Positions 19,097 through 21,937 of a DNA stretch of 23,998 nucleotides are shown piece after piece. Source of the DNA: a virus. How positions within the stretch are numbered: the stretch's first letter is position 1; every line of letters begins with the position of its first letter. The stretch is from the IMG/VR virus record IMGVR_UViG_3300010396_000099, positions 1 through 23,998 of that record; one strand, written 5' to 3'. A program made the translations under genes and the position numbers. The notes under the pieces were generated by a model. The model searched no databases, had not been told where the DNA came from, and saw nothing but the letters and a program-made list of their open reading frames with translations.

Positions 19097-19229
19097 GCGG
19101 CATCCCTCCAAAAACAGCCTCAAGCACCAGCACGCCGAGAATCACAGCAACGACGATGACAGACCATATTGCTTCCGCTCTCATTCTGCGGTGCCGGCTC
19201 TCCATCCAGGCCTCGTTGTCGCGGTTCAT
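19089..19229 (-). CDS. 46-residue membrane protein
   Basis: ATG 19229 overlaps the TGA of the gene above (ATGA). The product has a charged N-terminal third (NRDNEAWMESRHRRMRAEA) and one hydrophobic helix (WSVIVVAVILGVLVLEAVFGG). The layout of a basic start then a single membrane span resembles many short phage membrane proteins. Coupling and composition support it as genuine. Confidence 0.65.
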   Translation of the reverse strand: MNRDNEAWMESRHRRMRAEAIWSVIVVAVILGVLVLEAVFGGMPRV

Positions 19230-19525
19230 GATTTCACGCACTCAAGGAGCCAATCAACCGATTCCCGATCCATGCCGGGCATTACCGGCAATACGGTATC
19301 TTCTGGGACGGCATCAATCCACTCAAGCGCAGCACAAAGAGCTTCTACGAGCGCCTCATGGTTGTTGACGGCCTTGACGATGAGGGCGGCGTTAGCCTTT
19401 GCGGTTTCGTGCCCAGCAATGCCAACTCCATTAACCTGAACGGTTTCCAGACAATCGCCGCCACGCGCCCCATGCGCAACCATGTCTCCGTACTTATCGA
19501 AACTCCACGGCAATTTCGTATGCAT
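19226..19525 (-). CDS. HTKLPW-family phage protein
   Basis: This 99-residue protein starts at ATG 19525, three bases after a strong TAGGAGGG ribosome site. It opens with HTKLPWSFDKYG and has KANAALIVKAVNNHEALVEALCAALEW, the signature of a very common phage early family (HTPxPW at the start; AxANAxxIVxAxNxHExLxxAL later). A second member is at 21304-21603. Function unknown. It is the first gene after the 1.4-kb structured region and its ribosome site lies at the end of that RNA. Confidence 0.85.
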   Translation of the reverse strand: MHTKLPWSFDKYGDMVAHGARGGDCLETVQVNGVGIAGHETAKANAALIVKAVNNHEALVEALCAALEWIDAVPEDTVLPVMPGMDRESVDWLLECVKS

Positions 19526-20078
19526 ATTCCCTCCTAGTTGAATTCATGCCGGTTACCTTCGTCCGGCGATCCCCCTCGCAAGAGGGAACGGGTGGGCTTC
19601 GTCGATTACCATCTCGCCCAGCGGTCAAATTCGGACTAAACAGCGCGCCGGGTCGCCGTTGATATAGCCCTGCGGTCTGGTGGCCGCATCGCCTTGAGCA
19701 AACTTCGGTCTTGGCGCGTAGTTTTTATGCCGGGCACGTCTCCGGCGCGGGCTTCCGCCGCCGTGATGCCATCCATAGTCCGGTTACACACATTTGACGA
19801 GCAACTACCGGCAAGAGTCTCGTGTTGGTGGCTGGCGCTGAACTCCGGCATATTCCAGTTCTAGATACGTCAGCTCGAACAAGCGCCCGGGATAACTATC
19901 GCTCTTGCATCAGCCTGCACATTCACCAACAAAGCAAACGTCTGGACGCGACTTCCAGATATCTACCGGGGCGATATCGACTCCCGGCGTCTTGGCCCGC
20001 GCATACGCGCTATTCTTGTTCGGGTTGCAGCCTGCGCTTACAGGCTTCATTTGCTTTCTTGGTGCTGCTTTCCAACAA

Positions 20079-20158
20079 AGTAGGGTGCTGGACTCGAACC
20101 AGCATCTCTCAGAGGGGGATAATCCGGCTAAGGCTCTATCCAATTGGGCTACCCCTAC
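20079..20158 (-). tRNA. tRNA-like sequence, degenerate or tRNA-derived
   Basis: Minus-strand features: acceptor GTAGGGG/ACCCTAC with one mismatch; TA at positions 8-9; a D-arm AATTGGATAGAGC with one mismatch in its stem; a perfect T-arm GCTGG-TTCGAGT-CCAGC. The 29 bases between the D- and T-arms contain a possible CTC/GAG variable-arm hairpin but no good anticodon stem, so I assign no amino acid. No CCA is encoded, and the acceptor helix continues outward as a 14-bp perfect helix (20072-20085/20153-20166). It is probably a tRNA-derived domain of the larger RNA; a real tRNA cannot be excluded. Confidence 0.5.
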
Positions 20159-20167
20159 TTTGTTGGC

Positions 20168-20188
20168 CCTCGCACTAACGCGGCGAGG
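20168..20188 (-). repeat. RNA module 1: hairpin plus GAGGGCCAACA
   Basis: Six-base-pair hairpin CCTCGC/GCGAGG with a nine-base loop containing GTTAG, running into GAGGGCCAACA and the tRNA-capped helix on the minus strand. The 12-base string TGTTGGCCCTCG on the plus strand is at 20161-20172. Confidence 0.7.
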
Positions 20189-20368
20189 TTTAACGTGTTG
20201 TGGCGGCTCGATTAACTGCCGCGCTCTATATTTCGCTACACTGACGCACCCACTTCCTCGCAGCACTCACGTCTTCGAGACGATGTTTCACCAACATTAA
20301 ATTGTTTTCAGCGTCGGGACTACAACCACCCGATATTTAGCTCGCGCCGAAAACAATTCAATGTTGGC

Positions 20369-20388
20369 CCTCGTCTATCGTGCGAAGG
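20369..20388 (-). repeat. RNA module 2: hairpin plus GAGGGCCAACA
   Basis: Hairpin CCT(T)CG/CGAGG with a bulged T and a nine-base loop containing GATAG, followed on the minus strand by GAGGGCCAACA and a 19-bp helix (one G-U) closed by 20291-20309. Plus-strand string TGTTGGCCCTCG at 20362-20373. Confidence 0.7.
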
Positions 20389-20647
20389 CCACTTCTAACG
20401 TGCTGCCTCTTTCTTCGGCTAGTTTCGGCGGCAAGCGTGGCCTACGCTCCCGGAACGGCATGGCCTTAGATCATCAACAAGGAAACGGGCTACTATCAGG
20501 GAGCCTTCGAATCAGGCCTATGCACAACCGCTATCCCCCATTGGCACCTGAAATACAACTGAATCAGATGACATTCCCGGACAGAAGGCATTACGTGGGT
20601 CCCTGAAAACAAACTCAGCTATGACGGGAGTAACCCGCTTCCTTGTT

Positions 20648-20678
20648 GGCCCTCGCGCCTATCATTTGCGCAAGGGCC
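20648..20678 (-). repeat. RNA module 3: 11-bp hairpin plus GAGGGCCAACA
   Basis: GGCCCTTGCGC pairs with GCGCGAGGGCC (one U-G on the minus strand) around a nine-base loop containing GATAG. The 3' arm overlaps GAGGGCCAACA and then the helix closed by 20474-20489. Plus-strand string TGTTGGCCCTCG at 20644-20655. Confidence 0.7.
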
Positions 20679-20923
20679 GGTTTGCAAGTTTTTTTGAATT
20701 CTTAATCCTCAAGTATTTCGGCTTAGCCGTCGCGCCTACTACCCGTGCCAGACAGTAGGCGCACCATCTGCTTAGATCGCTTGTTCTGCCGGCAGGCGAT
20801 GGCCGCAAAGTCACCCCTGCGCGTATTGTCTGGATTAGCGCCTCCTTGACCCTTGGCACAGGGAATTGGTCCTATCCAATAGAGGCAATGCCAGACTGAG
20901 AAAAGAATCATGTGTTGCAGTCC

Positions 20924-21303: not shown

Positions 21304-21603
21304 TTAGGCGCAAGCCTTGGCCAAAGCAGCTTTGCATTCTTCGTATTCCGCCAGATGGCTAGCCTCCCATTTGCCAGCGGCGCAGACGTGTTCGTAAATA
21401 CGAATGGCCTTTTCTAGCGCGGCAGTCAAATCCTCATGGCAATTTGCCGCTAGGACGATGAACTTGGCATTGGCCTTTCTCTCGGCGTGACTGCCAAATG
21501 TCATTTCGCAGATAGGCGCGCAACCCCGCTTTTCTCCGTCGCTGTCGCAGATTTGCAATTGGTCAAATTGATTAATCTGCCAAGGCAATTTTGTGTGGCT
21601 CAT
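21304..21603 (-). CDS. HTKLPW-family phage protein, second copy
   Basis: This 99-residue protein starts at ATG 21603, six bases after GGAG. SHTKLPWQINQFDQLQ begins it and ERKANAKFIVLAANCHEDLTAALEKAI carries the family signature shared with 19226-19525. The C-terminal third (YEHVCAAGKWEASHLAEYEECKAALAKA) is unique to this copy. Cys in CDSDGEKRGCAPIC could be structural. Function unknown. Confidence 0.83.
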   Translation of the reverse strand: MSHTKLPWQINQFDQLQICDSDGEKRGCAPICEMTFGSHAERKANAKFIVLAANCHEDLTAALEKAIRIYEHVCAAGKWEASHLAEYEECKAALAKACA

Positions 21604-21625
21604 CTCGCTCTCCAAACTCAATAAA

Positions 21626-21937
21626 TCAAACCCGTTCCCGAGCAACCTTCAGCATCAGCAGGCGAACGTACTTGCCCACGTCTGCATCGCTGAATTCGGG
21701 TGCCATTGCGCGAAACATCAACACGTTGTCATCGGCGGCATCGAATTGCGCTTCGACAAACGCGGTGCTGATGTCCTGCGAGGCGCGCTTGTCAGATTCG
21801 ATCTGGTCATGCAGGGCGGACATCAAGTCGAAGAATCCTTGCGTCTTCGGCTCTGCAAACTCGGCCGGTGCCATGCGGTCATACTGGCGCTGCGCTCTGG
21901 CAAATGTGTCGGCGATGGCTTGGTTTGCGATGTCCAT
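21626..21937 (-). CDS. First gene of the PL operon, hypothetical
   Basis: This 103-residue helical protein starts at ATG 21937, six bases after GGGAG, about 30 bases downstream of the expected PL start. MDIANQAIADTFARAQRQYDRM, then SALHDQIESDKRASQDIS and VGKYVRLLMLKVARERV. It holds the place of lambda N, but it lacks an arginine-rich N-terminus, so it is not an N-type antiterminator by sequence. Family not recognised. Confidence 0.78.
   Translation of the reverse strand: MDIANQAIADTFARAQRQYDRMAPAEFAEPKTQGFFDLMSALHDQIESDKRASQDISTAFVEAQFDAADDNVLMFRAMAPEFSDADVGKYVRLLMLKVARERV

Follow-up and report, generated by a model that had tools for sequence, protein, structure and literature searches.

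In this temperate phage, small early-operon genes flank a long stretch; what occupies it? The window analyzed here is the whole of IMG/VR record IMGVR_UViG_3300010396_000099 (23,998 nt), the minus strand of which encodes an integrase, a YqaJ exonuclease, RecT, an HNH protein and SSB, with a repressor-like HTH protein further upstream. The stretch is bordered on either side by PHROG 1273 proteins (19226-19525 and 21304-21645), and a preliminary description had taken all of 19526-20923 to be a frame-free structured RNA. A structured RNA is found there on the minus strand, which is also the strand of the early operon, and no ORF within ~20678-19556 has a PHROG match at E<=0.01. The span was nonetheless drawn too long, because 20723-20911, directly before the RNA, could be a real gene of 62 aa with AAGGA ahead of its ATG. 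The RNA is therefore taken as ~20678-19556, or ~1.1 kb. To judge from its sequence, this stretch is a folded RNA in which a chain of arms surrounds a conserved core, and it codes for no protein.

The arms are closed by one recurring pair of words, CCAACA/TGTTGG (W and W′), and are separated by linkers, the last of which is the core. The elements, in window coordinates, are the following:

20648..20678, minus strand: 5′ leader hairpin GGCCCUUGCGC/GCGCGAGGGCC, an 11-bp helix of the predicted fold, just ahead of W1.
20475..20648, minus strand: arm 1, stem 20648-20629/20494-20475, a 20-nt inverted repeat (90%) forming a 19-bp helix with 2 G-U; words W1 CCAACA 20649-20644 and W′1 UUGUUG 20480-20475.
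20290..20368, minus strand: arm 2, 24-bp stem 20368-20345/20313-20290, identified from a 23-nt inverted repeat (20291-20313/20345-20367, 91%), the fold and compensatory changes relative to the related locus L374; words W2 20367-20362 and W′2 20296-20291.
20072..20166, minus strand: arm 3, a perfect 14-bp stem CCAACAAAGUAGGG/CCCUACUUUGUUGG (inverted repeat 20072-20085/20153-20166, 100%) prolonging the acceptor stem of the tRNA-like domain; deleted in L374.
20079..20158, minus strand: degenerate tRNA-like domain with an intact T-arm GCUGGUUCGAGUCCAGC, a 15-nt loop replacing the anticodon loop and no encoded CCA (RF00005, 31.6 bits).
19924..20064, minus strand: arm 4 (H1-type, preceding the core), CACCAAGAAAGCAAA 20064-20050 / UUUGCUUUGUUGGUG 19938-19924, a 15-nt inverted repeat (93%).
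19820..19936, minus strand: conserved core of 117 nt, with closing stem GUUGGUG/CACCAAC, GGUGAAU, hairpin 1, a variable region and hairpin 2 (model R1, 71.1 bits; covariation).
19905..19920, minus strand: hairpin 1, loop AGGCUGAU, a candidate kissing partner (covariation helix 2; loop pairing, helix 3).
19831..19849, minus strand: hairpin 2, GCCGG-AGUUCAGCG-CCAGC, the loop UCAGC of which complements GCUGA of hairpin 1 (helices 3 and 4).
19776..19828, minus strand: 3′ element CCAACACGAGACUCUUGCCGGUAG..., immediately past the last word, W5; 96% identity over 54 nt in L374.
19728..19769, minus strand: motif C, GCAUCACGGCGGCGGAAGCCCGCGCCGGAGACGUGCCCGGCA, 37/42 identical to a copy in P1 just ahead of tRNA-Asn; the pattern is present in 93 viral contigs.

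Read 5′ to 3′ along the minus strand, the words follow the order W CCAACA 20649, W′ UUGUUG 20480, W 20367, W′ UGUUGG 20296, W 20166, W′ 20077, W CACCAA 20064, W′ 19931 and W 19830. The W..W′ pairs close the arms, and the last W′..W pair closes the core. Recurring words yielded 19 extra complements against 3.4 for swapped-word controls (17 of 98 loci), and are clear only in a subset of loci. A possible distant interaction (I3) between the tRNA-like loop and the 3′ end was also considered and lay within chance.

Four of the long-range inverted repeats reported earlier were borne out, at 14-23 nt and 90-100% complementarity. Against dinucleotide shuffles, 20720-19560 folds with z -3.9 on the minus strand and z -1.4 on the plus strand, which by itself is weak evidence because five same-strand coding stretches used as controls range from z +2.3 to -2.9. 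The same description had argued that departures from pairing are G-U on the minus strand; this is mostly so in the arms, where arms 1 to 4 contain two, three, none and one G-U, respectively.

A natural experiment is provided by L374, the RecT of which is 75% identical to that of the window and in which three blocks of the window RNA are kept at 88-96% identity. Arm 2 stays paired in L374, where a C-G pair has become U-A and a G-U pair has become G-C, the latter change backing the G-U argument for this arm. L374 is without the stretch from the tRNA-like arm into arm 4, and after this deletion CCAACAAAGCA now pairs with UGCUUUGUUGG. Within its last linker, the interior is replaced while the closing words are retained. 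The comparison shows that the words behave as interchangeable joints.

Short blocks common to the window, P1 and Aeromonas phages were found by BLAST in unannotated stretches, and the search pattern GGTGAATGNNCAGGCTGATG occurs in >120 viral contigs. Over 81 aligned loci, 96.3% of cells in the closing stem and hairpins 1 and 2 are paired and 103 cells are changed on both sides, although the count for hairpin 2 itself is inflated, this hairpin having been located partly via its pairing. The covariation score is 0.211, compared with 0.089 for shuffled alignments (0/500 reaching it) and at most 0.115 when slid, so that the covariation check proposed at the outset gave a positive answer. Unaided, RNAalifold recovers the same three helices from these loci. 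The cleanest covariation evidence is the closing word: in 90 of 102 loci, the three bases ahead of GGUG are fully paired with their partners, compared with 42 loci (maximum 54) in shuffles. The core is thus an RNA family with a covarying closing stem and two hairpins, and it belongs to a conserved, modular RNA. The loops of the two hairpins are complementary over six bases (GCUGAU/AUCAGC) and nearly invariant, changing only from GC to GU; this is consistent with a kissing pair, supported by conservation rather than by covariation. A covariance model of the core, R1, scores the window at 71.1 bits (E 7e-18), the window being one of its 81 training rows. Compared with Rfam 15, the core family reached the gathering score of no model, and weak matches in the window to flavivirus xrRNA, HIV SL4 and the like are attributed to chance.

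A 41-mer from the core of enterobacterial phages is present in 438 of 50,697 phage records, mostly with no annotation beneath the match, and in 1,343 of 5,426 E. coli genomes. A strongly conserved RNA is nearly unannotated in some of the best-studied phages (P1, and as a remnant lambda), as it is in roughly one in four complete E. coli genomes. With R1, two cores are detected in P1 and one or more each in IME11 (N4-like), ST4, CF23a, 62AhydR11PP, 2_D05 and the lambdoid HK629 and CUS-3; E. coli K-12 has two relics in Qin. In MG1655, one Qin relic lies between dicF and dicB, while the other, which has a terminator-like hairpin and a T-run after it, lies between cspB and essQ (L251 19451-19584 and 11060-11176). 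In lambda, the remnant of an arm is kept between Q and S; no core was found in lambda or in P22. The core is present in 10 of 51 RecT-related loci. In a scan of species genomes, matches with both hairpins fell mostly in Gamma- and Betaproteobacteria; a wider bacterial range (Bacteroidota and others) was rejected, as those matches contain neither hairpin 1 nor hairpin 2 and appear fortuitous. The P1 ORFs plp and upl (L003 4169-4738) are antisense to the RNA, with plp overlapping the first core, and may not be genes.

Some copies of this RNA contain tRNA-like pieces. In the window, the Rfam tRNA model RF00005 matches 20158-20079 with 31.6 bits (gathering 29), while ARAGORN reports no tRNA in the window, and the loop in the anticodon position is 15 nt long rather than the 7 nt of a cloverleaf. 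The initial proposal of a minus-strand structured non-coding RNA, set in a phage operon with tRNA-like elements, is supported. Around the core, canonical T-arms are strand-specific, with 44 in sense and 1 in antisense, and occur in only 27 of 107 loci.

Sister RNAs carry a tmRNA-type tag. In P1, IME11, Skatevirus, Kuttervirus and Felixounavirus, a linker contains ...UAAAU GCA AAC GA., ten codons in all, and a stop. The frame ends in -AA or -AVA (ANDDLMMVAA in P1, ANDDVVLMAA in IME11), the stop switches among TAA, TAG and TGA, and the pseudoknot that follows covaries. The module is held by 762 phage records and is mostly unannotated in the following four:

L003 3551-3830: tag module of P1.
L128 2229-2508: tag module of IME11.
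L253 2472-2751: tag module of Kuttervirus SenASZ3.
L368 1730-1910: tag module of Felixounavirus Alf5.

The tmRNA models (RF00023, RF04321, RF01850) align to the module in frame, below threshold. The likeness to tmRNA thus lies in the ten-codon AND...AA-type tag and covarying pseudoknot of the sister linker, but no tmRNA-type tRNA-like domain was identified, and the window has neither an AND-type tag nor a resume codon. The one candidate there, GCA AAC CGG CCC UUG CGC AAA UGA (~20685), has the wrong ending. A complete phage tmRNA was considered for Alf5, where a G3-U70 acceptor and CCA follow the tag, and was rejected; the element reads as a degenerate tRNA because an ordinary tRNA-Arg(UCU) occupies this site in the relative 3HA14. 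Kuttervirus SenASZ3 also has 2.4 kb without annotated genes (L253 1849-4222), containing long stems, T-arms and the tag module and no R1 core. Many viral contigs (L255-L366, e.g. L255 5737-5755) carry ordinary-looking tmRNA tags ending in ALAA, probably from permuted phage tmRNAs.

GOLLD and ROOL, to which the window RNA had been likened as a possible divergent member, are likewise large ornate phage RNAs near tRNAs; GOLLD sometimes has a tRNA in its linker, and kissing loops are a further shared feature (PMC12286853). However, the window RNA matches neither in sequence or structure. GOLLD (RF02032) gave no match in the window at E<=10 or in nine other members at E<=5, and ROOL (RF03087) gave none in the window or the other members examined, a result that rests on cmscan, since a separate search for rings returned none even in control genomes. 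The suggested membership of either family is thus abandoned. For GOLLD and ROOL themselves, a trans-acting scaffold role touching the tRNA or ribosome machinery has been suggested. By analogy, and from the tRNA, T-arm and tmRNA-tag modules, a similar role is the favored reading of the present RNA, at a little short of even confidence: a large modular RNA of the early operon, built of arms, core and tRNA-like arm, may act in trans as a scaffold in contact with that machinery. It would be transcribed with the early operon and released from the operon transcript. Its 3′ words can pair either with the preceding word, closing an arm, or with the following word, closing a linker, so that the molecule could swap its pairing or join its own copies.

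More tentatively, the RNAs of P1, N4-like, Kutter-, Felix-type and lambdoid phages may constitute an unrecognized superfamily of large phage RNAs, in which interchangeable arms and linkers with co-evolving closing words capture tRNA, tmRNA-tag and sRNA modules and form a self-associating scaffold through strand-swapped junctions. The findings bring the flanks of DicF, STnc100/PasD, degenerate phage tRNAs and the tmRNA-type tag into one testable architecture, and laboratory phages are now available for asking what large phage RNAs near tRNAs are for.

The nearest catalogued relative is STnc100 (RF02076), to which the core is homologous through bridging members. Although RF02076 gives no match in the window at E<=10 and stays below its cutoff of 47 in Qin and P1, it and R1 match the same elements in register, at 34.4 and 30.8 bits in Qin and at 33.4 and 36.6 bits in the second core of P1. 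These share the order word, GGUGAAU, hairpin 1, variable part, CCGG-type hairpin 2, CACC and word. The two differ in loop sequences, and RF02076 models only ~200 nt, without arms, tRNA-like domains or recurring words. The idea of a new class therefore holds for the composite, which is in no Rfam family and is undescribed in the sources searched, few subscription papers among them, but not for every part of it, since one of its modules falls within an sRNA family already known. A 1994 study reportedly treated dicF-related prophage sequences and may overlap with the present findings. In Qin and the P1 'dicF-like region', the R1 core directly follows DicF, but DicF itself is a 53-nt piece outside the core. 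The end of the 72-nt DicF form in Qin is made by RNase III (PMC5069750) and maps by coordinate arithmetic to ~1649453, inside the closing stem of the core; the 190-nt form also has an RNase III end (PMC10448788), which by the same arithmetic lies within an arm, provided that the two forms have a common 3′ end. A relative of the window RNA is thus expressed, and cleaved within its stems, in vivo.

These relationships supply the main rival, by which the phage transcript ends or is cleaved at the core, freeing DicF-, STnc100- or PasD-type pieces that act with Hfq on host mRNAs. PasD, a structural homologue of STnc100, is described as a prophage sRNA that binds Hfq and is validated by northern blot, and Hfq binding is likewise described for relatives catalogued as STnc100/PasD (PMC13192938); a terminator lies <=200 nt downstream in 23% of loci compared with 2.8% of control windows. 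Yet none was found for the window RNA in 21000-19000, and the most conserved parts are paired or engaged loops instead of an exposed seed. As a source of base-pairing sRNAs would also leave the arms, tRNA domains and tag modules unexplained, it is considered somewhat unlikely.

Genome context raises a second alternative, that of a cis-acting leader, a structured RNA close to the beginning of operons governed by Q, N or a repressor, which would set antitermination, processing or stability of the downstream transcript. The median gap between flanking ORFs (>=100 aa) is 895 nt. On the upstream side, Q antiterminators (12 of 89 for one PHROG) are frequent neighbors, as are repressors (11 of 89), those downstream are often holins, endolysins and small terminases, and in lambdoid phages the RNA sits between Q and the holin. 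Its site nevertheless varies, from the early left-type operon in the window to the ban operon in P1, the RecT region in relatives and the middle of the genome in IME11. A terminator stands after many copies, and cis leaders seldom need tRNA-like arms, which makes this reading rather improbable.

Degenerate tRNAs with altered anticodon loops and otherwise conserved stems, as well as the strand-specific enrichment of T-arms, would suit a decoy that diverts tRNA-attacking enzymes of the host or of rivals, for instance the anticodon nucleases of anti-phage systems; with most loci lacking a canonical T-arm and the tRNA-like arm gone in L374, such a role is very unlikely. A functionless, decaying tRNA array could account for broken tRNAs and for deletions between relatives, but is scarcely credible, since both the core and the arms show compensatory changes and the RNA has been kept in hundreds of phages. 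Among related viral contigs, one carries an abiF RNA (55.2 bits, L108 1269-1305) and another an int-alpA RNA (44.9 bits, L104 5427-5494).
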